From: a bacterium
Lineage (GTDB): Bacteria; Zixibacteria; MSB-5A5; GN15; FEB-12
Direction: 5' to 3'
DNA: 45,443 bases
NCBI GenBank assembly: GCA_029211095.1
Contig: JARGFS010000005.1
Location: forward strand, 1 to 45,443
Position numbers and translations under genes: made by a program. The notes beneath the pieces were generated by a model. It had not been told where the DNA came from, ran no database searches, and was given only the letters and a program-made list of their open reading frames with translations. Below are positions 6,742 through 30,535 of this stretch, piece by piece; within the stretch, counting starts at the first letter, position 1; every line of letters starts with the position of its first letter.

Positions 6742-7338
6742 ATGGGATTAACTAAAATCTTATCCGATGAACACCGGGTAATTGAGGTTGTGCTCGACTG
6801 CCTCGACAAGATTACCGAAGAAGCCAACAGTGTGGGTAAATTGAATGAGGAATCCGCGGTGCAGGCTATTGATGTCATCCGTACCTTCGCTGATAAATGC
6901 CATCACGGCAAAGAAGAAAACCACCTTTTCGCTACGCTGGTTAAAAAAGGCATGCCCCAAGAAGGCGGGCCGGTGGGACAGATGCTGGTTGAGCATGAAC
7001 AGGGACGTGCATTTGTAAAAGGGATGGCTGATAGTGTTGTAGAAGCAGCGGCTGGTAATGCCGACGCTCTCTCGAAGTTCACTCAGAATGCTCATGGATA
7101 TGTCCAACTGCTCAGAGCCCACATTCAGAAAGAAGATGGAGTCCTCTTCCCTATGGCTGACAAGGTCCTTAATGAGGAAGATCAGAAAGAGCTCATGAAA
7201 GCGTTCGAAGTGGTAGAATCTGATCACATGGGCGCCGGTACTCATGAAAAGTACATTGGTATAGTGGTGTCACTTGCCAAGCAGTACAGAGTTGAAACTT
7301 CTCACATTTCGTCCCACTCTTGTGGATGCGGACATTAG
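6742..7338 (+). CDS. Hemerythrin HHE-domain protein
   Basis: A four-helix bundle that binds a di-iron centre and, in this family, O2 or NO. Candidate iron ligands are spaced as expected: H11, H54 or H55 with E58 or E59 (CHHGKEEN), H85 (MLVEHEQGR), H127 and E131 (LRAHIQKED). The 198-aa protein is cytoplasmic (no signal sequence) and ends in a Cys/His tail, SCGCGH, that could bind metal. AAAGGAG precedes the ATG by about six bases. It lies between an Rrf2 regulator and qNOR, only 19 bp upstream of the latter, which suits a role in NO sensing, scavenging or repair of iron centres. Confidence 0.9.
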   Translation: MGLTKILSDEHRVIEVVLDCLDKITEEANSVGKLNEESAVQAIDVIRTFADKCHHGKEENHLFATLVKKGMPQEGGPVGQMLVEHEQGRAFVKGMADSVVEAAAGNADALSKFTQNAHGYVQLLRAHIQKEDGVLFPMADKVLNEEDQKELMKAFEVVESDHMGAGTHEKYIGIVVSLAKQYRVETSHISSHSCGCGH

Positions 7339-7357: not shown

Positions 7358-9598
7358 GTGAAGAAGTTATGGATAGCATTTACGCTAGTCGTCGTAATCT
7401 CATTTGCGGTTCTTGGTTGGACTGGGATCAAGATATACCAGGAAAAACCTCCAATACCTGAATCAGTCGTTACCACAGATGGTGTGACCATCATCCCTGC
7501 TGGCGACATTTCCGCAGGGCAAAATGTCTGGCAGGCAATGGGTGGCATGGAGCTTGGCTCTATTTGGGGACACGGTGCCTATACCGCACCTGACTGGTCA
7601 GCCGATTGGCTGCATCGAGAATGTGTTTTCATTTTGGATAAATGGTCTGATGCAGACTATGGCACAGCGTTTGATGACATCTCTCTTGAGAATCAAGCGA
7701 TGCTTAAAGAGCGGCTAAAAGCGCTCATGCGGACTAATACCTACGATCCCCAGTCAAATCGAATCATTCTTGATCCCATTCGACAGGAAGCCTTTGAGTC
7801 TAACCTGGCTCATTATCAGGATATCTTTATGAATGGTCATACCGAGTATGCCATTCCTGAAGGAACAATAAAGGATGCTGCCAGAATGCGTCAAATGGCT
7901 GCATTTTTCTTCTGGAGTTCGTGGGCAGCCTCGACAAACCGTATCGATGATAAAATTACCTATACCAGTAACTGGCCCCATGAGCCTCTCATTGATAACG
8001 TTCCCACCAGTGATTCAATTATCTGGACCGGATTCAGTATCATTATGCTGCTGGGTGGTATTGGCCTATTGGTTTGGTATCACGCTTCTCGTAAACATGA
8101 GCCGGTTGCAGAGCAACTTCCAGATGATGATCCGCTGATGAACTTCAAGGCAACACCTTCACAACTGGCTACAATTAAGTATTTCTGGACAGTTGCGGGA
8201 CTTTTTCTGCTACAGATGGTTATGGGAATAATATCTGCTCATTACGGAGTTGAAGGTGATGGCTTCTATGGTATTCCTCTCGATAAGTGGATCCCTTATG
8301 CATTGGCTCGAACTTGGCACACACAGCTCGGTATTTTCTGGATAGCAACGGCCTGGCTTGCCGCCGGACTCTTTATAGGACCCGCTGTAAGCGAAACAGA
8401 ACCGAAGTTCCAGAGATTAGGTGTCAATGTTCTCTTTGGAGCCCTCCTGGTTGTCGTCCTCGGCTCGTTTGCGGGTGAATGGCTGAGTGTTATGGGCTAT
8501 CTCGGCGGTGATTCATGGTTCTATTTTGGTCATCAAGGGTACGAGTATGTTGACCTTGGTCGTGTTTGGCAGATTGCTTTGCTCGTTGGACTCCTTCTTT
8601 GGGTGTACCTTGTTGGCCGCTGCATTCTTAAGGCGATAAGACAGGGTGGCGAACAGAAACCCCTTCTGACCATGTTTTTAATATCTGCTGTTGCAATAGG
8701 CGGTTTCTACATGGCCGGTCTCATGTGGGGGAAACAAACTCACCTTTCAATAGTGGAGTACTGGCGTTGGTGGGTCGTACACCTTTGGGTGGAAGGTTTC
8801 TTTGAAGTATTTGCAACCGCCGTTATTGCTTTCTTATTCGCTCGACTTGGATTAGTGAGATTAAAAAGTGCAAACTCTGCCGTGATATTCTCCACTACAA
8901 TATTCCTCACTGGTGGCATCATTGGTACTCTTCATCATCTCTACTTTGCGGGGACACCGACAGTCGTCATGGCATTGGGAGCCATTTTTAGTGCTCTTGA
9001 AGTTGTGCCTCTGACTATTATTGGATTCGAAGCCTGGGACAATATCCGTTTATCACGATCAACAGCCTGGGCCGCTAAATACAAATGGCCAATCTACTTC
9101 TTTGTGGCGGTTGCATTCTGGAATATGGTTGGAGCGGGTCTGTTCGGATTCATGATTAATCCTCCTATAGCGCTGTACTACATGCAAGGGTTGAACACCA
9201 CGCCAGTTCACGCGCATACAGCACTCTTCGGTGTGTACGGGATGCTTGGCATCGGCCTTATGCTTTTCTGTTTACGCGTACTTTATGTAAAGAGAGACTG
9301 GAAGGATAACATTCTCAAGTTCGCCTTCTGGACTATCAACGGTGGTCTGTCACTTATGGTCTTGCTCAGCTTGCTTCCGATTGGATTTATGCAAACATGG
9401 GCATCGGTGGAACATGGTTATTGGTATGCCAGAAGCGCTGAGTATCTCTATTCTCCGACAATTACAGTGTTCAAATGGTTGCGCGCTCCGGGGGATACAA
9501 TATTTGCGTTAGGAATCCTGGTGGTTGTGCTGTTCATCTTTGGTTTGGCAACAGGTCACTCTATTAAAGAGAAGAATCAAATCGAGTCTGATTCATAA
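7358..9598 (+). CDS. norZ: Quinol-dependent nitric oxide reductase (qNOR, NorZ type)
   Basis: qNOR reduces two NO to N2O with electrons from quinol, in the inner membrane, for denitrification or NO detoxification. The 746-aa length suits the single-subunit form: an N-terminal helix (about 5-26), a periplasmic NorC-like domain without haem c (HGAYTAPDWSADWLHRE, about 73-89), a helix about 220-243, then the 12-helix haem-copper oxidase-like core. Visible ligand residues are H321 (RTWHTQLG), H475 (VVHLWVEG), H526-H527 (LHHLYFAG) and H618/H620 (HAHTALFG), and the VEG glutamate is typical of NOR. The GTG start at 7358 is preceded by AGGAAAGGA; the nearby ATG at 7350 stops at once. A terminator hairpin follows. 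Confidence 0.96.
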   Translation: MKKLWIAFTLVVVISFAVLGWTGIKIYQEKPPIPESVVTTDGVTIIPAGDISAGQNVWQAMGGMELGSIWGHGAYTAPDWSADWLHRECVFILDKWSDADYGTAFDDISLENQAMLKERLKALMRTNTYDPQSNRIILDPIRQEAFESNLAHYQDIFMNGHTEYAIPEGTIKDAARMRQMAAFFFWSSWAASTNRIDDKITYTSNWPHEPLIDNVPTSDSIIWTGFSIIMLLGGIGLLVWYHASRKHEPVAEQLPDDDPLMNFKATPSQLATIKYFWTVAGLFLLQMVMGIISAHYGVEGDGFYGIPLDKWIPYALARTWHTQLGIFWIATAWLAAGLFIGPAVSETEPKFQRLGVNVLFGALLVVVLGSFAGEWLSVMGYLGGDSWFYFGHQGYEYVDLGRVWQIALLVGLLLWVYLVGRCILKAIRQGGEQKPLLTMFLISAVAIGGFYMAGLMWGKQTHLSIVEYWRWWVVHLWVEGFFEVFATAVIAFLFARLGLVRLKSANSAVIFSTTIFLTGGIIGTLHHLYFAGTPTVVMALGAIFSALEVVPLTIIGFEAWDNIRLSRSTAWAAKYKWPIYFFVAVAFWNMVGAGLFGFMINPPIALYYMQGLNTTPVHAHTALFGVYGMLGIGLMLFCLRVLYVKRDWKDNILKFAFWTINGGLSLMVLLSLLPIGFMQTWASVEHGYWYARSAEYLYSPTITVFKWLRAPGDTIFALGILVVVLFIFGLATGHSIKEKNQIESDS

Positions 9599-20807: not shown

Positions 20808-22403
20808 CTACAATGATATCCCCAGTTCGGTTCTCAGTTCCGTAGATTGCAAGTAGGAGTCCAGGTACTGCCTGATCTGCACCGAGAGATAATAGCGACG
20901 GCCAAGATACCGGGAGGCATCGGCAGTAAGAGTATAGTTGTCATCCGTCTCCCCGTTCGTCTCATAGAGATATCCGGTACCGGAGAGATTCACATTCCAG
21001 CTTTTCAACATTCTGAAACGGTAAGATATAAACGGCCGGTAAGCGGTCAGAAAATCAGTATCTATCCAGGCGAGCCTGATAGATACCGACTGTCCGGACG
21101 CCGGAAATCTCTTAAGACGCAATGAGAACGAACTGTTCTTGCTGTCTCCGTTTACATCGGAACGCATTCGAATACCGCCATCGGCACTCAGTGAGATGCG
21201 GCTTGAGACATTCCAGTCAAACCCTCCGCGTAGTCCCTTTCGTGAACGATCATCAAAGAGAGAATCCGCAATGTCACGATATTCAAAGTACCGGATGGTG
21301 GTCCGATTATCGTAGGAGAGTCTGATATTCAGATTCCTTGTCAGGGCTACCCGCGTACTGCCAAAGTAGTTGGTCAGTTCAAGACGCTTGCCGGCCGCTC
21401 CAAAGCGCCAGTCCCGGTTGACATCCAGTTCAGCCGACTGGAAGATGTAGATTCTTCGCGAGGACGAGAAGTTAGTTTGCAGATAGAGGAAGTCACGACT
21501 CACAACGCTGCCCCGATATTCACTACTGAGAGCCACGGACGCAGCAAGCCTTTTGGAATCATAAGCTCCCGTTTCGTAGCCGACAAAGAGGCCCGCTTTT
21601 TTCCGGTCGAAATCGAATCCGGAATCTGAATACCTGGGAGTTGTTCCCCCGGCCAGGCCGACACTTAGTTTGGAAGTGAGACGTTTTGTGAAATAGGCGC
21701 CATCAACATAGCCCATTCCGCGAACCTGCGGGGCAGAGACCCGACCAGCCCCCCAATGATTACCCGGCCCCTCATAGGTGAACGATAACTCGCTCAGGCG
21801 GTGCGTCCAGGAATCTTTTGACTGATCCGAACGCGGAGGTCTGGAGCGGTGATACAGCCTTGTGCGGTGGCGTAGATTGAATTTTATTCCGCTGCCGCGA
21901 ATGTTGTCCATGCGCAGCCTGAGTCCGATACCAGATTGCGACCAGTCTCGGTTTGAGCCGCTCTGGTCGAATTGCCTTGTCTGCTCTAACGTTATACTAC
22001 CCTGCAGTCTCTCTTTCCGGGGTCGATCCGGCTTCCTTGTCGACCGCGTGGCAGGCGGAGATTCAGGGAGAATTGTTTTGACCGGTTCGGCAGCCTCTGT
22101 CTCAATGGAGACAATATCTCCAGCTTTGAGTCCTGTGAATTGGTCGAGCGAAGTGGCGGCCGCGGAGTTGGAGCCAATATTGGTTATTACCAGCCAGGTC
22201 AGCGTGTCCCCGGCTCTAATCACGGCGAGGCTGTCTCCGGTTTTTAATCCGGCGTTGCTGCCGACATTGATGTAGACCGCTTCGGAGGAGACATAGGTGA
22301 TCTCGGCACTGTTTTTCGCGGCCGTTACAATTGGGGACAATGTGACTAACCCGAGGAGCAGGCAGCCGATGCAATTGATCCTATTCAAAATATCTGTCCT
22401 CAT
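20808..22403 (-). CDS. Outer-membrane beta-barrel with N-terminal SH3/FlgT-like domain, in multihaem cytochrome operon
   Basis: The 531-aa product starts at ATG 22403, right after the stop of the 25-haem gene (22405-22407), and has a signal peptide (about 8-28, INCIGCLLLGLVTLSPIVTA). Residues about 35-100 form a small beta domain with the repeated pattern VYINVGSNAGLKTGDSL and FTGLKAGDIVSI, as in FlgT C-terminal domains. A Pro/Arg-rich linker leads to about 350 residues of alternating polar and aromatic strands (for example LSELSFTYEGPGNHWGAGRV, WNVNLSGTGYLYETNG), expected to make a barrel of 14-18 strands. Its place after two multihaem cytochromes suggests the porin of a porin-cytochrome conduit, comparable in role to MtrB or OmbB without clear sequence similarity. 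The open frame extends upstream to 22517 inside the cytochrome gene, which is not used. Confidence 0.8.
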   Translation of the reverse strand: MRTDILNRINCIGCLLLGLVTLSPIVTAAKNSAEITYVSSEAVYINVGSNAGLKTGDSLAVIRAGDTLTWLVITNIGSNSAAATSLDQFTGLKAGDIVSIETEAAEPVKTILPESPPATRSTRKPDRPRKERLQGSITLEQTRQFDQSGSNRDWSQSGIGLRLRMDNIRGSGIKFNLRHRTRLYHRSRPPRSDQSKDSWTHRLSELSFTYEGPGNHWGAGRVSAPQVRGMGYVDGAYFTKRLTSKLSVGLAGGTTPRYSDSGFDFDRKKAGLFVGYETGAYDSKRLAASVALSSEYRGSVVSRDFLYLQTNFSSSRRIYIFQSAELDVNRDWRFGAAGKRLELTNYFGSTRVALTRNLNIRLSYDNRTTIRYFEYRDIADSLFDDRSRKGLRGGFDWNVSSRISLSADGGIRMRSDVNGDSKNSSFSLRLKRFPASGQSVSIRLAWIDTDFLTAYRPFISYRFRMLKSWNVNLSGTGYLYETNGETDDNYTLTADASRYLGRRYYLSVQIRQYLDSYLQSTELRTELGISL

Positions 22404-22404
22404 C

Positions 22405-24339
22405 TCAATCGTTCCCATCTGGATGGCAGGATAAGCAGGCATCGCTGTCGTAAATGTAGCCCGGTCTCCCGCTGTGCCGGTCGTCCATATCCAGCTGGTT
22501 ATGCTCGTGGCACTCAAAGCAGGTGAAATCCGTTCTGTCGCCCGGAATAGTATGGCAGGTCATACAATCGCTCCAGCGTCCGGCGTGCTTTCCGGAATAG
22601 ATCGAGAAAAACTGATTATCGTGCCCGGTAAAGGTCCCTTTTAAGCCGGTTGGATGGCAACTCAGACAGGCGCTGCTGGTGGCGGTATAGCCGGACATAG
22701 AACCATGCAAAAGGTTTGACTGGGCAGCCGGGTGGCAAGACAAACAGTCGAAAACTGAATTGTCACCTGAGACAGGGTGGCATGAGGAGCAATCGGGCCA
22801 CTGACTGGCATGGGTACCGGAGAAAATTGGAAAGAAGAGACCATCGTGATCAGTAAACTCACCCGCTTCACCGGTCGGGTGACAGGAGTAACAGGTTGGG
22901 GAATCGTAAACATAGCCCGACATCCCGGTATGGTTCGGGTCAATTTCGGAACCGGGATGGCAGGTTAGACAGTCAAACACTTTGCGATCATTAGGGTCCG
23001 CATGACATTCAATACAATCTGACCATTTGCCTGAATGACGACCGGAGTATATCGGGAAATAGGTTCCATCGTGCACGGTAAACTCACCCGCTTCACCGGT
23101 CGGATGACAGGAGTAGCAAGTGGGGGAATCGTATGAGTAGCCTGCCATCCCGTTATGCACCGGCTCAACTTCGTTCCCCGGGTGGCAGGTCAGGCAGTCG
23201 AAAATCTGGCGTTCGTTGGGATTGTTGTGGCATTCGGCGCAATCACTCCAGGTACTGGCATGGCGGCCGGAGAAGATGGGGAAAAATTCCGCGTCATGAG
23301 CGGTAAACTCCCCTTTCAGCCCCTGGGGATGACACTCAAGGCAAAGCTTGCTGTCATAACCATAACCGGCCATGCTGCCATGTTTGCCATCCATCTCCTG
23401 CTGTCTATGTTCGTGGCAGGTCAGACAATTAAACTGCCTCCTGTCTGCCGGGACAGTATGACACTCGGTGCAACTGGACCACTCCGAAGCATGGCTGCCA
23501 CTATAAATAGGAAAATATTGAGCGTCATGCTCGCGGAAATCACGAGCTCGTCCATCCGGGTGGCAAAGATAGCAGTCGTCGCTATTGTAAACATAGCCGG
23601 TCATTCCACCATGCTCTCCATCCATATCCGATTGATTGTGAGCATGACAGACCAGGCAGGTGAAAACCTTGCTGTCGTTTGGGTCGGTATGACAGGTAGT
23701 GCAGCTATTCCAGGTGCCGGCATGTTCGCCGCCGTAAATTGGAAAATAAATCTCATGATTGGGAATGGTAGCCGGTCGCCATGAGTGCATCCTATGACAA
23801 TTCTGACACTCGGTGGAGAATCCATCGGCTACATGGTTGGGCGAGGCCGTGTTCAAATAGTCTGTCTGATGGCACTCAACACATCTTGACCGGCTGGTCA
23901 TCATGTCCCCCTGCGGGAGAGTGGTGTGGCAGCTCTGACAGTCCACCAGAGCATGTTTACCCATAAACGGGAAATCCGTGTTGATATGAATTTCCTGAAA
24001 GTCAAAACTCGACCACGACAATGATGAGTGACAGCGCTGACAGTCTGCTCCCATTTTTGATTCGTGTACATCCGCGTGGCAGTTTGAGCAGTTTTTTTCC
24101 ACCTCTGAGAAATCCTGCAGGTCGTGGCAGGAAACGCATCGGGCCGCTCTATGTTTTCCGTCGAGGTCGTACCCGGTAAACTGCACATGATCAAAATCAA
24201 TAGTTGTGAACGACTCGGTCGTATGGCAATTCTCACACGGCATCTTCAGCTTCTGATGCGGCACATCGCCGCTTTTCGCCTCTGAAGCAGTGACTATCGT
24301 CAACGCGATCAGCAAATATCCTGTGATTCTCATGAACAT
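22405..24339 (-). CDS. 25-haem c-type cytochrome built of six three-haem repeats
   Basis: I count 25 CxxCH motifs in 644 residues after a signal peptide (RITGYLLIALTIVTASEA). The first seven lie in a non-repetitive part (about 37-190). The rest consists of six units of 70-78 residues, each with the pattern HDxxFFPIxSGxHAxxW, CxxCH, about 10 residues, CLTCH, a HxxM-GYxYDS block, CxSCHPxG, and FTxHD. Each unit has three CxxCH plus about three further conserved His (SGxH, xHxxM, xHD), enough for bis-His ligation of each haem. Spacing of units in DNA is about 225-234 bp. The start is ATG 24339 with GAGGG upstream; an overlapping TTG at 24345 is possible. The protein is likely periplasmic or surface-exposed and could act as a long electron wire to the barrel encoded next. 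Confidence 0.9.
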   Translation of the reverse strand: MFMRITGYLLIALTIVTASEAKSGDVPHQKLKMPCENCHTTESFTTIDFDHVQFTGYDLDGKHRAARCVSCHDLQDFSEVEKNCSNCHADVHESKMGADCQRCHSSLSWSSFDFQEIHINTDFPFMGKHALVDCQSCHTTLPQGDMMTSRSRCVECHQTDYLNTASPNHVADGFSTECQNCHRMHSWRPATIPNHEIYFPIYGGEHAGTWNSCTTCHTDPNDSKVFTCLVCHAHNQSDMDGEHGGMTGYVYNSDDCYLCHPDGRARDFREHDAQYFPIYSGSHASEWSSCTECHTVPADRRQFNCLTCHEHRQQEMDGKHGSMAGYGYDSKLCLECHPQGLKGEFTAHDAEFFPIFSGRHASTWSDCAECHNNPNERQIFDCLTCHPGNEVEPVHNGMAGYSYDSPTCYSCHPTGEAGEFTVHDGTYFPIYSGRHSGKWSDCIECHADPNDRKVFDCLTCHPGSEIDPNHTGMSGYVYDSPTCYSCHPTGEAGEFTDHDGLFFPIFSGTHASQWPDCSSCHPVSGDNSVFDCLSCHPAAQSNLLHGSMSGYTATSSACLSCHPTGLKGTFTGHDNQFFSIYSGKHAGRWSDCMTCHTIPGDRTDFTCFECHEHNQLDMDDRHSGRPGYIYDSDACLSCHPDGND

Positions 24340-24341
24340 AA

Positions 24342-25805
24342 TCAACCCTCGCGTAAATCCAATTCATTGACCGCCACCTTGTGACAGCTTTCACAGTCGG
24401 TTCGGAGCGGCCGGTAGCGCAGAGTCTCTATCCCCCGGATCGACTCGTTCTGGTGACAGTCAAGACAGGCTACTTTCTTATGGGCACCGGTCAGGGCGTA
24501 AGCAGTCTGCTTGCTATGATCGAAATCAGCAATTTCCCACCTGTCTATCGTATGGCAATCCAGACAGACTTTCGCTTTTTCACCAGTGGTAAACTGACCG
24601 GCATGCTGATCGGTGTGGCAGTCGGTGCATTGCTCTGATTTGAGAGTGTACAGCCGGTACGCGGTTTCTCCTTCACCAACCGTCTTGTGGCAGGCAATAC
24701 ATGGCTGGGCCCGATGAGCCCCAAGTAGCTTAAATTCTGTCTGTTCATGTTCGGTCAATCCGAACCTGGCCGGAAGAAATCCATTTACATCATGGCAGAG
24801 TTCACACTTTCCACTATCCGGCAGTGCCGTGAACTGAGCGGCATGGGGATCGCGATGGCAGTCTGTGCAGAGCGTGAATTTTAGCGATCCGGTTTGGGAA
24901 TCTGATTTATGACATTTGTCGCACTTGAGGTCCCGGTGCTTCCCTAACAGAGGGTATCGTGTCTTGCTATGATCGAAAGACTCTCCCCTGATAATTTTCC
25001 AGCCTTCATTGGTGTGACACCTTACACAATTGTCGCCAAATTTGCCGGAGTGAATATCTTTGTGACAGGAGGTACAGTTCGTGTGCGCAATTCCGGAATA
25101 CTTGATATACTCTTTCTGATTGTCTTCCGCAAAAGCTTCCAGTGACACAACGGGATGACACTTGCCGCATTCAACAGTGTGGTGCTTACCGGACAGAGGG
25201 AATTTCGTACTGGCATGATTGAATCCTGTGGCCGGTTTGAAAGATTCCTGCGAATGACATTGAGTACAATCAATACCGAGTTGGCTGCGGTGAATGTCGG
25301 TATGACAGCTGGTACAACTGGTATCAAGGCCCAGGTAGGTTCTTGTTATGTCGGTGCTTTCTGCCTCCGCCTCGGAGATATTCTTTATCAAAGAGGGATT
25401 GTGACAGTCGCGGCACTTTGTTTTTGCGTGCTTACCCTGCAATGGATAGCCTGCGTCGTTGTGTCGGAAATTCTCCATTCCATTCGGCCATCGTATCAGC
25501 TCAAAATCCCGTCCGGCATGTTCGGAGTGGCAGTCAAAACAGGTTTTGCCCGGCTCATTCAGAAGCAGGTGATGGTAACCTCTCTTTTTGTCCAGCCTCT
25601 TTTTCAGGGCGGCATGACAGTCAAGACATTTAGAGGCGCTGGGCCCCTCCCCAAGTTCATGGCAATTGGTGCAGTTGCTGATCCCTTCGAACGACTCATG
25701 TACCTCGGCTAAATCACCGGGCGATAGTTGGGCAGAAGCCGTTGATGCAGACACCAGAAACAGAGTCAGAACCATTAGCTGAATATGTATAATGAATCTA
25801 ATCAT
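24342..25805 (-). CDS. 17-haem c-type cytochrome (cytochrome c3-like family)
   Basis: I count 17 CxxCH motifs in about 487 residues after a signal peptide (IHIQLMVLTLFLVSASTASA). Several are preceded by the pattern GKHxxxxCxxCH or GAHxxxxCxxCH, with His in the position of the distal ligand, as in multihaem cytochromes assembled from c3/c7-like pieces. Only the membrane-near periplasmic role is inferred: it would take electrons from the b-type membrane protein encoded before it and pass them to the 25-haem cytochrome encoded after it. Start options are ATG 25805, five bases after the upstream stop, and GTG 25820, overlapping it. Confidence 0.88.
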   Translation of the reverse strand: MIRFIIHIQLMVLTLFLVSASTASAQLSPGDLAEVHESFEGISNCTNCHELGEGPSASKCLDCHAALKKRLDKKRGYHHLLLNEPGKTCFDCHSEHAGRDFELIRWPNGMENFRHNDAGYPLQGKHAKTKCRDCHNPSLIKNISEAEAESTDITRTYLGLDTSCTSCHTDIHRSQLGIDCTQCHSQESFKPATGFNHASTKFPLSGKHHTVECGKCHPVVSLEAFAEDNQKEYIKYSGIAHTNCTSCHKDIHSGKFGDNCVRCHTNEGWKIIRGESFDHSKTRYPLLGKHRDLKCDKCHKSDSQTGSLKFTLCTDCHRDPHAAQFTALPDSGKCELCHDVNGFLPARFGLTEHEQTEFKLLGAHRAQPCIACHKTVGEGETAYRLYTLKSEQCTDCHTDQHAGQFTTGEKAKVCLDCHTIDRWEIADFDHSKQTAYALTGAHKKVACLDCHQNESIRGIETLRYRPLRTDCESCHKVAVNELDLREG

Positions 25806-25807
25806 CT

Positions 25808-26680
25808 TTAGAATATCCACTTGTATCCCATCAAGACCACTACAGTTACATGAACAAACATGATCAGGATCATAATGACCGCGAACGGTTTGTGAAAGAC
25901 ATGCCAGAGATGAAAAAAGGAGTTCATGCTGTTCATAACCGCTTTTCTTCGGAGCAGCTTGGATTGTTCTTTGGCCATCCCGCTGATTCTCTTTACAGCT
26001 TTGGCGGAAAATTCCGGATTCTCTTTCTTGAGGAGTTTCCCCAACCGCCAGGTTTTGAAGGGCCTGAGCAAGTCACCGCCGAAACTGACCATTAGAGCTG
26101 ACAAGCCGCGTTGATTCTCTCCACTACCGGAAAGTGAGTGTATCCGGCGAATGACAAAGCGGCTGAGATTGTGAATCTCGGTCAGTTCCCTTTCGGTTTC
26201 GCGAAGGCGCTCGTCCACCTGATCAAGAGACAGAACCAGCCCGGTCTCATCACGGGGAATCTGCATATAGACGTAACGACCTATGAAACCACTCAACATT
26301 ACGGCCATCATGGAAAAATAGCTGATAGAGACAATTCCATTGAACTTCATAGCTGTGTGCAGCGTGATAAGAAGCGGGCCGATAATTCCAAACCAGATAT
26401 GGATATCGAGCCAGCGATTCATGCGACCAAAGCGGAGCCCCAGCTTATTTCTCTTACGAAGTGAGTAAAGGAAAAGAAGAAGGATCATGCAGCTGCCGAC
26501 AATTTCGAGACCGTGACCGGCAAATCCACTCGGCTTTAGTTCTTTGTGCAACTCGGCGTGCGGTCTTTCGGTCAGCGGAAGATTGTAATACTCCCGGCCG
26601 TACCAGGCGACCAGAAGAACAAACAGCAGACCAGCCACGTATAGCAGGAGCTTAAATGTACCAAAGAGGCTGAATTTCAT
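25808..26680 (-). CDS. Putative b-type cytochrome membrane subunit
   Basis: A 290-aa membrane protein with about five helices: 10-27, 56-71, 92-111, 119-139 and 263-285. His residues sit in or near the helices: GHGLEIVGS, LDIHIWFGIIGPLLITLHT (two His 13 apart), and HLWHVFHKPFAVIMILIMFVHV (several His, two of them 13 apart). Paired His in two helices is the usual pattern for bis-His haem b in ferric-reductase-like and formate-dehydrogenase-type subunits. A charged cytoplasmic coiled-coil segment (SLDQVDERLRETERELTEI) separates the helix groups. Its ATG overlaps the stop of the FAD/ferredoxin gene (ATGA 26677-26680). It would move electrons from that enzyme across the membrane to the multihaem cytochromes. 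Exact family not recognised. Confidence 0.75.
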   Translation of the reverse strand: MKFSLFGTFKLLLYVAGLLFVLLVAWYGREYYNLPLTERPHAELHKELKPSGFAGHGLEIVGSCMILLLFLYSLRKRNKLGLRFGRMNRWLDIHIWFGIIGPLLITLHTAMKFNGIVSISYFSMMAVMLSGFIGRYVYMQIPRDETGLVLSLDQVDERLRETERELTEIHNLSRFVIRRIHSLSGSGENQRGLSALMVSFGGDLLRPFKTWRLGKLLKKENPEFSAKAVKRISGMAKEQSKLLRRKAVMNSMNSFFHLWHVFHKPFAVIMILIMFVHVTVVVLMGYKWIF

Positions 26681-27987
26681 CGAACACCGTACTTAGTTTC
26701 CATTTCAATCCCGATCGACTTCAGAAACTGAGTAGGAAATTCGCCGCCGACCATGACGAAGACATAGTCATTGGGGAACAGCAGTTGTTCCCCCCGCTGT
26801 TGCAGGATGACGTCATCATTATGAATTTCCGTAACATGTGATTCCAGGATAGCTTTTACAGCACCGGAATCAATTGCCTGCTTAATTTTCTTTTCATTTT
26901 TCTCTTTGATCCTGGAGAAGACAGCCTTGCGATAGGACAAGCTGACATCGTTGCCCGGTTGTTCGCTCAGGACCAAAGCGGCTTCAATGGCACTGTCACC
27001 GCCTCCCACAACGAGAATTGATTTGTTTTGATATTGCTCCGGCTCCAGGAGACGGTAGGCAACTTTGGAACTGGCTTCTCCCGGTATGCCCAGTTTTCGA
27101 GGTGAGCCGCGGCGACCAATGGCCAGAAGAACATGACCTCCACTAAACGCTTTTCCATTACTGCCTGCTATGAATCGGCTGTTATCTCTTTCAATCCTGT
27201 CCACCTTCTGGCCAAAGCGGATGTCAACTTTTTCTCGGTCGGTGATCTCTTTCCAGATATCGAGCAGTTCTTCTTTGACAATCTCTCGCTTCTTAAACAG
27301 GCCGTAAGTAGGAATCTCCATCGGCTGGGTCATCACCAGCTTTTGCCGGGGGTATGACAGAATGGCCCCTCCGAACAGTTGTTCCTGTTCAAGAACTACC
27401 GTTCTCAATCCTTTGTCCTGAGCACACAGCGAGGCAGCCATTCCGGCCGGACCGGCCCCAACAACGATAAGATCAAACTCACAGTCTGACGCTTCTGATT
27501 TCTCCTGTGCGATATATTCCACCGCTTCCCTGCCCTGGGTAACGGCGTTTCTGATCAGGCCCATACCGCCGAGTTCACCGGCAATGTAAACCCCGGGCAC
27601 ATTGGTTTCAAAAGTCTCTTTTACATGGGGTAACTCCACCCCGCGCTTTTCTGTCCCAAAAACAAGGCTGATCGCATTGGTCGGACAGGCCAACATACAG
27701 GCCCCGTGACCGATACATTTGGTCGGCGAAACCAGGGTTGCCCGGCCATTAATCAGGCCGAGTATTTCCCCTTCGGGACAGGCACTAACACAAGCACCGG
27801 TGCTGATACAGCCATTAGGATCGATTTTGGGATGTAACGAAATCGGCTCAGTCAGTCCGCGCTCCTCTGTCTCTTTCAACTTCAGCTCCGCCCGCCTGGT
27901 TTTAGCCGTAAACCTCAACCAGTAAATGATCGGGATTAGCAGCACCATTGAGCCGACCGCTATGTTAATTAGAGTGTCGAGCGACAT
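26677..27987 (-). CDS. Membrane-anchored ferredoxin-FAD/NAD(P) oxidoreductase
   Basis: The 436-aa product begins with a membrane helix (about 8-27, INIAVGSMVLLIPIIYWLRF) and a charged stretch, then two iron-sulfur cluster motifs, CISTGACVSACP and CIGHGACMLACP, then a thioredoxin-reductase-like flavoprotein with two Rossmann motifs: VVGAGPAGMAASLCAQ (FAD) and VVGGGDSAIEAALVL (NAD(P)). Both ferredoxin motifs lack the second Cys of the classic CxxCxxC, having Thr and His instead; I recall similar C-x5-C-x3-CP patterns in related proteins. The redox-active CxxC disulfide of thioredoxin reductase is absent (GAILSYPRQKL region). I choose ATG 27987; the open frame upstream begins with TTG at 28044. 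It is the first gene of the electron-transfer operon and the likely cytoplasmic entry point. Confidence 0.85.
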   Translation of the reverse strand: MSLDTLINIAVGSMVLLIPIIYWLRFTAKTRRAELKLKETEERGLTEPISLHPKIDPNGCISTGACVSACPEGEILGLINGRATLVSPTKCIGHGACMLACPTNAISLVFGTEKRGVELPHVKETFETNVPGVYIAGELGGMGLIRNAVTQGREAVEYIAQEKSEASDCEFDLIVVGAGPAGMAASLCAQDKGLRTVVLEQEQLFGGAILSYPRQKLVMTQPMEIPTYGLFKKREIVKEELLDIWKEITDREKVDIRFGQKVDRIERDNSRFIAGSNGKAFSGGHVLLAIGRRGSPRKLGIPGEASSKVAYRLLEPEQYQNKSILVVGGGDSAIEAALVLSEQPGNDVSLSYRKAVFSRIKEKNEKKIKQAIDSGAVKAILESHVTEIHNDDVILQQRGEQLLFPNDYVFVMVGGEFPTQFLKSIGIEMETKYGVR

Positions 27988-28375
27988 ATAATGTAGAATA
28001 CCGTTGTTTCCGGCCAAAGCCGGAGCTTTCTCATTTAGTGACAATGATCTTACAATATATATCGGGCTTGGCGGAGATAAAACTGAGAAATTACGTATTT
28101 CGAGGATAAGGGCTTGTGTCTAAATGAGTTGTCCCGGCGCACGATCTACGAACTTGGACTTCAACTGTCGAATAAGCCTCTTTTACCATTGCAGATCCGG
28201 GTTAAAAGAGATTGCCCGATGTTAATTGAATCCAGACTCAGTGTGGCGCAACTGATCAAGCCGGTCCGAATGACATAGATTTTTCCCCGCACTTGGGTTA
28301 TACTTGTATGAAGTCCGTCCCAATTATGGGTCGTGGAGTTTGTAAGGCCGATCAGAACCTGCGAGGGAATATTTA
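27988..28375. other. Divergent intergenic region between electron-transfer operon and ATP-grasp cassette
   Basis: The two operons are transcribed away from each other from here, so both promoters should lie in this stretch. On the plus strand TATACT at about 28301-28306 is a possible -10 box; the matching -35 is not clear. No protein gene or RNA gene is supported. Confidence 0.4.
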
Positions 28376-30535
28376 TTGAAAGTAGCCATTGTATACAATC
28401 GAGATAGCCAACGAGTGATCAATCTCTTTGGAATGCCTAATCAGGAAAAGATTGGTCTGAAAACTATCGACCGCATCGCCAGCGGGTTGAGGAAAGGCGG
28501 CCATCAGGTAGTGGCTATTGAAGGGGACAAGGACTTAGTCAACAACCTGGAGCACTTTATGCCCAGAGTTGTGAAGGGTGAATTCCCCGGACTTGTGTTC
28601 AATGTCTCATATGGTATCCAGGGCCAGGCTCGCTACACGCATGTTCCCAGCATACTGGAAATGGTGGGAGTCCCTTATGTCGGTTCCGGTCCGCTTGCCC
28701 ATTCACTTGCTCTGGACAAGGTTGTGGCGAAAATGATTTTCAAGCAACACGGTATTCCCACCCCTGAATTCACAGTGATGGACTCCCCCGATTCGCCGGT
28801 AAGTGAGATCAAATACCCTGCCATTGTCAAACCAAAGAATGAAGCGGTCTCGTTTGGTATAAAAATTGTGCATAGCGAAGATGAGCTTCGCGAAGGCGCT
28901 TCCCTCATATTTGAAAAATTCAAGCAACCCGTTCTTGTGGAACAATACATTGAGGGGCGCGAAGTAAACGTGGGATTGCTCGGCAACAATCCACCAGAGA
29001 CACTTCCTCCGGTAGAACTCATTTTTGGTAAAACCGGCCCCGCAATCTATACCTACGAAGACAAGACCCGACAATCCGGGCGGGAGATTTCATGGGAGTG
29101 CCCGGCGAATCTTCCGGATGACATACTTGATCGCGTCCTTGAAACAGCCAGGCAGGCGTTTGATAAACTCGGCTGCTATGACTGCGCCAGAGTCGACATT
29201 CGGCTCGATGCATACGGGAATCTGTTTGTCCTTGAAGTCAACAGCCTTCCAAGTCTGGGTGAACATGGTTCTTTCACTATCGCCGCCGAGAAGGCGGGTC
29301 TGGATTTTGACAAGCTCGTTTGCAGGCTGGTTGAGGTTGCCTCGGCACGTTATTTCGGGACTCCTTCCCCCCCCGATATCAGTAAGCCGGGCAAGAACGT
29401 TGATCAGAAGCTGTTCTCTTATCTTGTGGAGAGACGTGACCGGCTTGAAAAGCAGGTTGAAGACTGGTGTCACGTTTCCAGCCGTACATCGGATCCGACT
29501 GGAATGAGAGAAGCCAAACAGCTAATCCAGAAGTTTGCAAACGAAGTCGGATTGTTGCCAGTAGAGGAGTGTACCGATGAAAGGACAGTCTGGACATGGC
29601 AAACCAAAGCGACTATGGCCAAGGGTGTTCTTCTGGTAGCTCACATGGATGTTCCGATTGACCTGAAGGCTCCTTCAGTCGCTTTTCGACGTGACCCTGA
29701 ATGGCTGTATGGCGAGGGGGTGGGGTCATCGCGCGCACCAATCGTTTGCATTCAAAGCGCGTTGCGCGCTCTCAGGAGTATCCGCAAACTAAAGAACATA
29801 CCCTTAGGCTTGTTGATCTACACTGATGAAGGACGTGATTGCCGGTATAGTTCCAAGCTGATCAGGGAAGCTATCTCCAAAGCAGACGAAGTACTGATAC
29901 TCCGTCCCGGGAATCTTGAAAACAGCATAGTGCCCCAGAGACGGGGATGGCGCAAGTATCGGTTTAAAGTGAGTGGCTCACCAAGAAGACTCGGCAAGAT
30001 ATACAAAAAAAGGGGTGTGCTCAAGTGGGCCACCGATTGCCTGGAGAGTTTCTCAAAACTGACGTCAAAAGAGAAAAGATTCGCAGTTGCCACCAGTGAC
30101 TTCAAGACAGAATCGTATCCCCAAATGCTCCCGCACCGCGTAACGGCCGATGTAATAGTGAGCTTTCTCAATAACAAGCATGCCGATGAACTGGATATAT
30201 CGATGCAACAATCAATCAAGACAAAGGACTACAAGTGTACACTTGAACTCGTGTCGGAACGCCCTCCACTAAAGAAATCCAAAAAATCCGCCCAGCTCTA
30301 TCGCCAGTTGGATGCGGTTGCCCGCAACTGGGAGATCCCCCTGGAAAAAGAGTCTTCCCTTTCTCCCTCGGTCGGTGGATTGGCACCTTCAAGGATTCCA
30401 ACAATCTGCGGAATCGGTCCGGTGGCGCGCGATGTAGACACACCGCAGGAGGCAGTCTTGAGAATCAGCCTGATGCAGAGAACTTTGCTATTGGCACAGT
30501 TTCTCCTGACCAGGGCCGGGAATAAGATGAAGTGA
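28376..30535 (+). CDS. ATP-grasp ligase (D-Ala-D-Ala ligase-like) fused to degenerate M20 peptidase domain
   Basis: The 719-aa protein starts at TTG 28376 with GAGGGAA upstream. Residues 1 to about 325 are a D-Ala-D-Ala ligase-type ATP-grasp domain: FNVSYGIQGQARYTHVPSILEM, VPYVGSGPLAHSLALDK, YPAIVKPKNEAVSFGI, and the metal-binding end EVNSLPSLGEHG (E287, N289). Such enzymes activate a carboxylate as acyl phosphate and join it to an amine. Residues about 340-719 follow the M20 fold: HMDVP (H423, D425), IYTDEGRD (D484, E485) and the end GIGPVARDVDTPQEAVL. However the bridging Asp, the second Glu of the DEE motif (Gly here), the lid-domain His (SPRRLG for AHAG) and the final metal-binding His (D686/D688 region) are missing, so peptidase activity is doubtful. 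It is the first of four coupled genes. Confidence 0.85.
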   Translation: MKVAIVYNRDSQRVINLFGMPNQEKIGLKTIDRIASGLRKGGHQVVAIEGDKDLVNNLEHFMPRVVKGEFPGLVFNVSYGIQGQARYTHVPSILEMVGVPYVGSGPLAHSLALDKVVAKMIFKQHGIPTPEFTVMDSPDSPVSEIKYPAIVKPKNEAVSFGIKIVHSEDELREGASLIFEKFKQPVLVEQYIEGREVNVGLLGNNPPETLPPVELIFGKTGPAIYTYEDKTRQSGREISWECPANLPDDILDRVLETARQAFDKLGCYDCARVDIRLDAYGNLFVLEVNSLPSLGEHGSFTIAAEKAGLDFDKLVCRLVEVASARYFGTPSPPDISKPGKNVDQKLFSYLVERRDRLEKQVEDWCHVSSRTSDPTGMREAKQLIQKFANEVGLLPVEECTDERTVWTWQTKATMAKGVLLVAHMDVPIDLKAPSVAFRRDPEWLYGEGVGSSRAPIVCIQSALRALRSIRKLKNIPLGLLIYTDEGRDCRYSSKLIREAISKADEVLILRPGNLENSIVPQRRGWRKYRFKVSGSPRRLGKIYKKRGVLKWATDCLESFSKLTSKEKRFAVATSDFKTESYPQMLPHRVTADVIVSFLNNKHADELDISMQQSIKTKDYKCTLELVSERPPLKKSKKSAQLYRQLDAVARNWEIPLEKESSLSPSVGGLAPSRIPTICGIGPVARDVDTPQEAVLRISLMQRTLLLAQFLLTRAGNKMK

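Follow-up and report, generated by a model that had tools for sequence, protein, structure and literature searches.

A five-gene putative electron conduit of Zixibacteria and other phyla in which a permuted flavoenzyme would feed multihaem cytochromes and an outer-membrane barrel

Most characterised routes of extracellular electron transfer in Gram-negative bacteria start at quinol, and the outer-membrane conduits fed in this way (by CymA and similar proteins) combine a barrel with a multihaem wire. Another described system, the putative porin–cytochrome complex 3 (PCC3), consists of a porin, an extracellular multihaem cytochrome (MHC), a periplasmic MHC and an inner-membrane protein (IMP), and the periplasmic MHCs of Gallionellaceae carry 21, 24 or 27 haems, in steps of three (He et al. 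2017, PMC5566968; Hoover et al. 2023, PMC10734462). Here we describe a locus that resembles PCC3 in a 45,443-nucleotide stretch of DNA (the window), which is one contig (C197) of a 3.06-Mb metagenome-assembled genome (MAG) that is 96.6% complete and whose host, judged from a single gene, belongs to the Zixibacteria: rpoB shares 63-64% identity with three 'Candidatus Zixiibacteriota' genomes and no more than 55% with other phyla. Five co-directional genes span window positions 28044 to 20808 on the minus strand, in the order flavoenzyme (FAD), IMP, MHC-1, MHC-2 and barrel (BAR):

26677..28044, minus strand: flavoenzyme with transmembrane (TM) anchor, double Fe–S ferredoxin and permuted FAD/NAD(P)H domain (Pfam Fer4_10, Pyr_redox_3 E 3e-41; PDB relatives; 25-sequence alignment)
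25808..26680, minus strand: IMP with five TM helices and four His (51-sequence alignment; AF2 model)
24342..25820, minus strand: MHC-1, a 17-haem c-type cytochrome with Sec signal (CXXCH count; Cytochrome_C7 E 6e-21; 21 extra His; conserved adjacency to the IMP)
22405..24345, minus strand: MHC-2, a 25-haem c-type cytochrome with Sec signal (CXXCH count; Cytochrome_C7 E 4e-20; haem spacing 34-15-26)
20808..22403, minus strand: predicted outer-membrane protein with signal peptide, small beta domain and 22-strand barrel (AF2 model; Foldseek)

The genes, motifs, folds, conservation and co-occurrence, read from sequence or predicted from it, strongly support the architecture of a trans-envelope conduit, and we consider it rather likely that its five parts act together as a transmembrane dehydrogenase of the NAD(P)H oxidase type that is connected to a multihaem wire. 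The original prediction, made from the sequence alone, had not recognised this gene order as a described conduit; because the IMP has the published PCC3/PCC4 signature, the conduit is not wholly undescribed. From this signature and the other features described for PCC3, we suggest that it would work like a PCC3-type conduit with a dehydrogenase of the NADPH oxidase (NOX) type added, and by this entry enzyme it would differ from the quinol-fed conduits. Features that are new relative to PCC3 as described are the dedicated cytoplasmic flavoenzyme, probably using NAD(P)H, its permuted fold and a range far beyond Proteobacteria. We also count as new the haem numbers, which step by three. In the main text of open-licence papers, we found no publication on the flavoenzyme-linked module.

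All five open reading frames lie where they had been placed, on one strand, and neighbouring genes either overlap or stand a few bases apart. The flavoenzyme stop overlaps the IMP start (at CGATGAAA), IMP and MHC-1 overlap or are in near contact, the TTG start of MHC-2 is overlapped by the MHC-1 stop, and the barrel ATG lies 1 base past the MHC-2 stop; the barrel start was set at 22403 because an extension of the reading frame to 22517 enters MHC-2. The flavoenzyme gene was upheld but not its TTG start at 28044, the probable start being the ATG at 27987, where homologues begin. Our count of CXXCH motifs, 17 plus 25, agrees exactly with the 42 haem motifs claimed, and chance was rejected as their source, with shuffles of the same composition averaging 0.17 (MHC-1) and 0.31 (MHC-2) motifs and reaching maxima of 2 and 4 in 2000 shuffles. 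An assembly or binning artefact was ruled out by the presence of the cluster in 14 relatives and in other phyla. A promoter and terminator scan of the locus returned nothing informative.

Scanning the genome collection for the IMP returned 51 loci in many phyla, and of the 18 loci in which the IMP is flanked by 7 kb or more on both sides, 16 carry the flavoenzyme, the barrel and a large MHC. Among 81 genomes of the window's order, a strong IMP match was detected in 15, the flavoenzyme (E ≤ 1e-60) in the identical 15 and the barrel in all 15; for unrelated genomes, an identical distribution of IMP and flavoenzyme would arise by chance with a probability of 1e-16, a value that kinship makes less extreme. 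This constant fifth gene, an Fe–S/FAD oxidoreductase, distinguishes the cluster from PCC3 as described, as do its host phyla outside Proteobacteria. The module is patchy among the genera of the order and occurs there in two gene orders (FAD-IMP-MHC1-MHC2-BAR and IMP-MHC1-MHC2-BAR-FAD), which suggests that the gene association outlasts rearrangement. We found it in Zixibacteria, Calditrichota, Krumholzibacteriota, Acidobacteriota, Nitrospinota/Nitrospirae and others; in the Nitrospinota/Nitrospirae loci, the genes for flavoenzyme and IMP are paired, and the other strand encodes the barrel along with just one large MHC. The original prediction had made itself depend on the co-occurrence of barrel and cytochromes in related genomes, on the barrel prediction and on conserved His residues in the membrane protein: the first is borne out, the second holds in the AF2 model and the third holds in 51 of 51 sequences.

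The IMP has 290 residues, and its AF2 model (pLDDT 92.3, pTM 0.83) consists of five TM helices and a cytoplasmic helical region. "His-rich", as it had been called, is not the right wording; what stands is four invariant His in two WX3HX13H motifs, W90-H94-H108 on TM3 and W259-H263-H277 on TM5. TM4 carries SGFIG, and S130, G131 and G134 of this motif, together with R135, are also invariant across the alignment. He et al. (2017, PMC5566968) describe the PCC3 IMP as a protein of about 300 residues with five TM helices, SGXXG on TM4 and WX3HX13H on TM3 and TM5, all of which the cluster's protein has; SGXXG and the two WX3HX13H motifs are exactly the published PCC3/PCC4 signature. In the same report, PCC4 and the IMP-MHC clusters have the same IMP motifs, with a neighbouring Fe–S or redox gene in subgroup II, and differ in having another MHC set. 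H94, H108, H263 and H277 are candidate haem ligands in this alignment. Both TM3 and TM5 are oriented from inside to outside by the positive-inside rule, and because the two helices are parallel, H94/H263 and H108/H277 would pair at two depths, as two transmembrane b haems need. The Pfam family Ferric_reduct (PF01794) matches the IMP at E 9e-4 with 19.7 bits, below the threshold of 28.

The flavoenzyme has an N-terminal TM anchor (~27990-27901) followed by an Arg/Lys-rich sequence, and because positive residues trail the anchor, the positive-inside rule suggests that its redox domains are cytoplasmic. These are a double Fe–S ferredoxin domain (~27831-27667, residues 72-126) and an FAD segment of the C-terminal type (~27642-27505), which lies ahead of the Rossmann part (~27477-26689). 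YpdA/Bdr is the top PDB relative, thioredoxin reductase (TrxR) relatives were found too, and the Rossmann motifs VGAGPAG and VGGGDSAxEA, for FAD and NAD(P)H, are conserved in the alignment of 25 homologues. The segment ETNVPGVYIAGELGG, terminal in ordinary YpdA/TrxR-like proteins, here stands N-terminal to the first Rossmann motif, and in an unpermuted Sphingobium relative the C-terminal residues 298-348 match profile positions 115-165 (2e-9) and the main part matches positions 171-433. By its sequence, the flavoenzyme is a fusion of a ferredoxin with a circularly permuted YpdA/thioredoxin-reductase fold, whose domain order departs from the linear one of the family. No redox-active CxxC or conserved Cys was present in the Pyr_redox part among the 25 aligned homologues, so we do not regard the enzyme as a TrxR-like disulfide reductase. 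The alignment has six invariant Cys. In the second ferredoxin motif a nearly invariant His takes the place of the usual second Cys (CxGHGxC); in the first, the corresponding Cys is Ser or Thr in proteins of the window's clade, Emticicia and Nitrospinota/Nitrospirae; because of these replacements, one or both Fe–S clusters may have unusual ligands and an unusual potential. A Pseudoalteromonas plasmid protein (L105:5932-8286), encoded within a glycosyltransferase cluster, joins this permuted YpdA-like domain to a membrane polyferredoxin, so the permutation is not exclusive to the five-gene module. The resemblance to NOX and ferric reductases (FRD) lies in a cytoplasmic NAD(P)H-FAD module that would feed a membrane protein in which two helices each carry a pair of His spaced by 13 residues. 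The cluster's flavoenzyme, however, belongs to another fold family and has Fe–S clusters, the IMP is weakly similar, and electrons would pass to an MHC wire rather than to O2 or Fe(III).

Both cytochromes are dense in haem, MHC-1 with 17 in 492 residues (29.0 residues per haem) and MHC-2 with 25 in 646 (25.8), and in being two very large repeat-built MHCs of low residue/haem ratio they resemble the PCC3 proteins (22-39). Spare His number at least one per haem in both, so bis-His low-potential wires fit MHC-1 and MHC-2. We suggest that MHC-1 is probably the periplasmic wire and that MHC-2 probably pairs with the barrel. MHC-2 contains six tri-haem repeats (~23868 to 22408), each 75-77 residues long, with haem spacing 34-15-26. 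MHC-1 homologues have 17, 20 or 23 haems in 44 of 45 proteins, and MHC-2 homologues 10, 16, 19, 22, 25, 28, 31, 37, 40 or 49 in 30 of 35, the proteins counted being related to one another and not an independent sample. Because these ten sizes fall in one residue class modulo 3, in Bacteroidota and Zixibacteria alike, MHC-2 seems to have grown by whole tri-haem modules, and the sequences point to MHC wires lengthened by repeats of about 75 residues. Periplasmic MHC sizes differ by three haems in PCC3 as well as in the cluster. No tandem repeats were detected in MHC-2 at the DNA level, which suggests that the repeats are old. Triheme c7 repeat cytochromes (e.g. GSU1996, TIGR04257 domain) are likewise lengthened in tri-haem units of some 75 residues, but the cluster's MHCs have far more units and are secreted with a barrel, and TIGR04257 scored below its cut-off. 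No relatives of solved structure were found for either protein by sequence. Membership in MtrAB/OmcB was rejected, as no family matched above threshold; the TIGR03508 model for the decahaem MtrA-like proteins (DmsE family) of MtrAB/MtoAB/PioAB gave 46-48 bits against a cut-off of 192. A fused MHC-1/MHC-2 was also sought, and the 29-38-haem proteins of Nitrospinota/Nitrospirae resemble MHC-1 and continue with other repeats, giving no clear fusion.

The barrel model (AF2 pLDDT 80.4, pTM 0.63) has 22 strands from residue 132 (~22010-20814), preceded by an N-terminal beta domain (~22310-22104) with a weak FlgT_C-like match. The best Foldseek matches to this model were exclusively outer-membrane barrels (FimD/PapC, OprD and AlgE families), at E 6e-9 to 2e-6, and by sequence the barrel profile matched no solved structure. 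Textbook barrel geometry applied to the model would give a backbone diameter of about 40 Å. An outer-membrane barrel gene is a further likeness to PCC3, whose porin and MHCs we compared by description; PCC3 porins have up to 42 TM regions, whereas the cluster's barrel has 22 strands and the N-terminal beta domain. The barrel occurs without other module parts in four further genomes, three of which have a neighbouring 27-36-haem MHC-2-like gene, and in one genome (G030) a second barrel gene adjoins one for a 48-haem MHC. The loci that hold a barrel and an MHC-2-like gene of 27-48 haems without IMP, flavoenzyme and MHC-1 are L146, L147, L149 and L150. Because this pair occurs without the rest, MHC-2 and the barrel appear to be a separable outer-membrane sub-module.

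In the conduit that we propose, NAD(P)H, the probable entry donor, would reduce FAD in the permuted YpdA-like domain, and electrons would leave FAD via the two Fe–S clusters of the anchored ferredoxin domain to reach the IMP. There, two stacked b haems, at H94/H263 on the cytoplasmic side and H108/H277 on the periplasmic side, would span the inner membrane. MHC-1 (17-23 haems) would then bridge the periplasm, and MHC-2 (10-49 haems), in or on the 22-strand barrel, would with it carry electrons through and past the outer membrane to an extracellular acceptor. A cytoplasmic entry enzyme coupled to a b-type subunit in one operon had been predicted; the flavin/Fe–S enzyme, the b-type-like subunit and the operon stand and are conserved across phyla, and NAD(P)H as donor, in preference to ferredoxin or quinol, and the bound b haem are what we infer from them. 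Outward flow would be favoured because both the drop in potential and the membrane charge assist the movement of electrons from NAD(P)H to the outside, so the conduit may serve disposal of reducing power rather than energy conservation, in a role like that of NOX or fermentative extracellular electron transfer. Several points weigh against this conduit. At one locus (L026), the IMP is accompanied by neither flavoenzyme nor barrel, and the pTM of the barrel model is just 0.63. A lipobox is missing from both MHC-1 and MHC-2, so MHC-2 would depend on the barrel to be anchored at the surface. Searches by sequence, and of the PDB by fold with the AF2 model, found no solved structural relative of the IMP and matched no haem-b fold, so haem b in this protein rests on the His pattern and the sub-threshold Pfam match. 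Lastly, the PCC3 model of He et al. (2017, PMC5566968) gives this IMP type quinone, not NAD(P)H.

If that model applied here, a PCC3-type conduit would exchange electrons with the quinone pool via the IMP, and the flavoenzyme would be a side-entry or redox tuner, not the main donor or acceptor. The exact PCC3/PCC4 signature, for which the quinone-linked model was published, argues for this, and the MHC sizes and both residue/haem ratios agree with PCC3 values. We nevertheless consider it unlikely: the linkage of the flavoenzyme is as tight as that of the barrel (15/15 genomes), it adjoins the IMP even in Nitrospinota, where the cytochromes lie on the other strand, and distant IMP homologues adjoin other kinds of NAD(P)H/Fe–S enzyme. 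On proteobacterial plasmids, these homologues stand between a different flavin/Fe–S enzyme and a 7- or 10-haem cytochrome:

Alteromonas (L102) and Legionella (L188) plasmids: FAD_binding_6/NAD_binding_1/Fer2 enzyme, IMP homologue and 7-haem cytochrome, no barrel
Methylophaga plasmid (L101): 2Fe-2S protein, IMP homologue and 7-haem cytochrome, no barrel
Sphingobium plasmid pTomTYG65a (L187): Pyr_redox enzyme (two cNMP-binding domains, Fe–S clusters, unpermuted, Fer4_11), then IMP, then 10-haem cytochrome

Because one IMP type recurrently pairs with unrelated flavin/Fe–S enzymes, it would take (or give) electrons there, and we favour NAD(P)H rather than quinol at the inner end of the path. The Alteromonas operon adjoins a NiFe hydrogenase. 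The Sphingobium cluster, of the IMP-MHC type, differs from the window's in its unpermuted flavoenzyme with cNMP-binding domains, and no barrel of this family was found nearby; its 10-haem cytochrome is membrane-anchored with an FHA-like N-terminal part, a cpdA gene is nearby, and it possibly represents cAMP-controlled electron transfer.

Electron uptake, with an extracellular donor (a reduced mineral, Fe(II) or a partner cell) driving inward NAD(P)H formation, would suit wire parts that are reversible in principle and the reported occurrence of PCC3 in iron oxidisers (PMC5566968). Inward flow to NAD(P)+ would, however, have to overcome both the potential difference and the membrane charge, except with a very reducing donor, and we regard uptake as improbable. 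Detoxification or cofactor reduction, in which the cytochromes would reduce a soluble oxyanion or other periplasmic substrate admitted by the barrel, is highly improbable: porin-linked MHCs for selenite are known in Geobacter and MHC-1 weakly matches the selenite/tellurite-operon cytochromes ExtN and ExtO, but these matches are far below curated cut-offs, the cluster is without a sulfurtransferase or catalytic cytochrome, and wire-like expansion to 49 haems would make little sense for a small periplasmic reductase.

All five genes are also present in a cultivated bacterium, the Bacteroidota type strain Emticicia oligotrophica DSM 17448, on plasmid pEMTOL02 (NC_018749.1:81299-89995; L100), where they form EMTOL_RS21090-21110 behind the cytochrome-maturation gene ccsA. 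Identities to the window are 48% for the flavoenzyme, 37% for the IMP, 36% for MHC-1, 29% for MHC-2 and 24% for the barrel (E 2e-29), and the cytochromes have 23 and 40 haems. Plasmid searches with the barrel and with MHC-1 matched Emticicia solely. This intact copy makes the NAD(P)H-fed conduit directly testable in a cultivated organism. We tentatively suggest that quinone-independent extracellular electron transfer of this kind may be widespread, with NAD(P)H oxidised at a dedicated flavo-Fe–S enzyme and passed along a single-operon wire to the surface; the number of tri-haem repeats would determine how long the wire is, and the system would occur in many phyla, most of them uncultivated, and on a Bacteroidota plasmid. 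If true, direct coupling of the cytoplasmic NAD(P)H pool to the surface would account for the disposal of electrons on minerals, humics or partners by bacteria that ferment or respire poorly, electroactivity would be suggested for many uncultivated phyla, and bioelectrochemistry would gain a compact five-gene part. The step-by-three haem counts suggest that wire length evolves by whole modules.

Further MHC clusters were observed in the same genome on contigs C122, C166, C214, C56, C179 and C144, including a 26-haem protein on C56 and 8-, 11- and 10-haem genes on C122, so the host is cytochrome-rich. Elsewhere in the window, we noted by eye a quinol-type nitric oxide reductase-like protein (7358-9598) directly behind a hemerythrin-like gene (6742-7338). 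Divergent from the operon lies a gene (28376-30535) that fuses an ATP-grasp domain like that of D-Ala-D-Ala ligases to an M20-peptidase-like domain.

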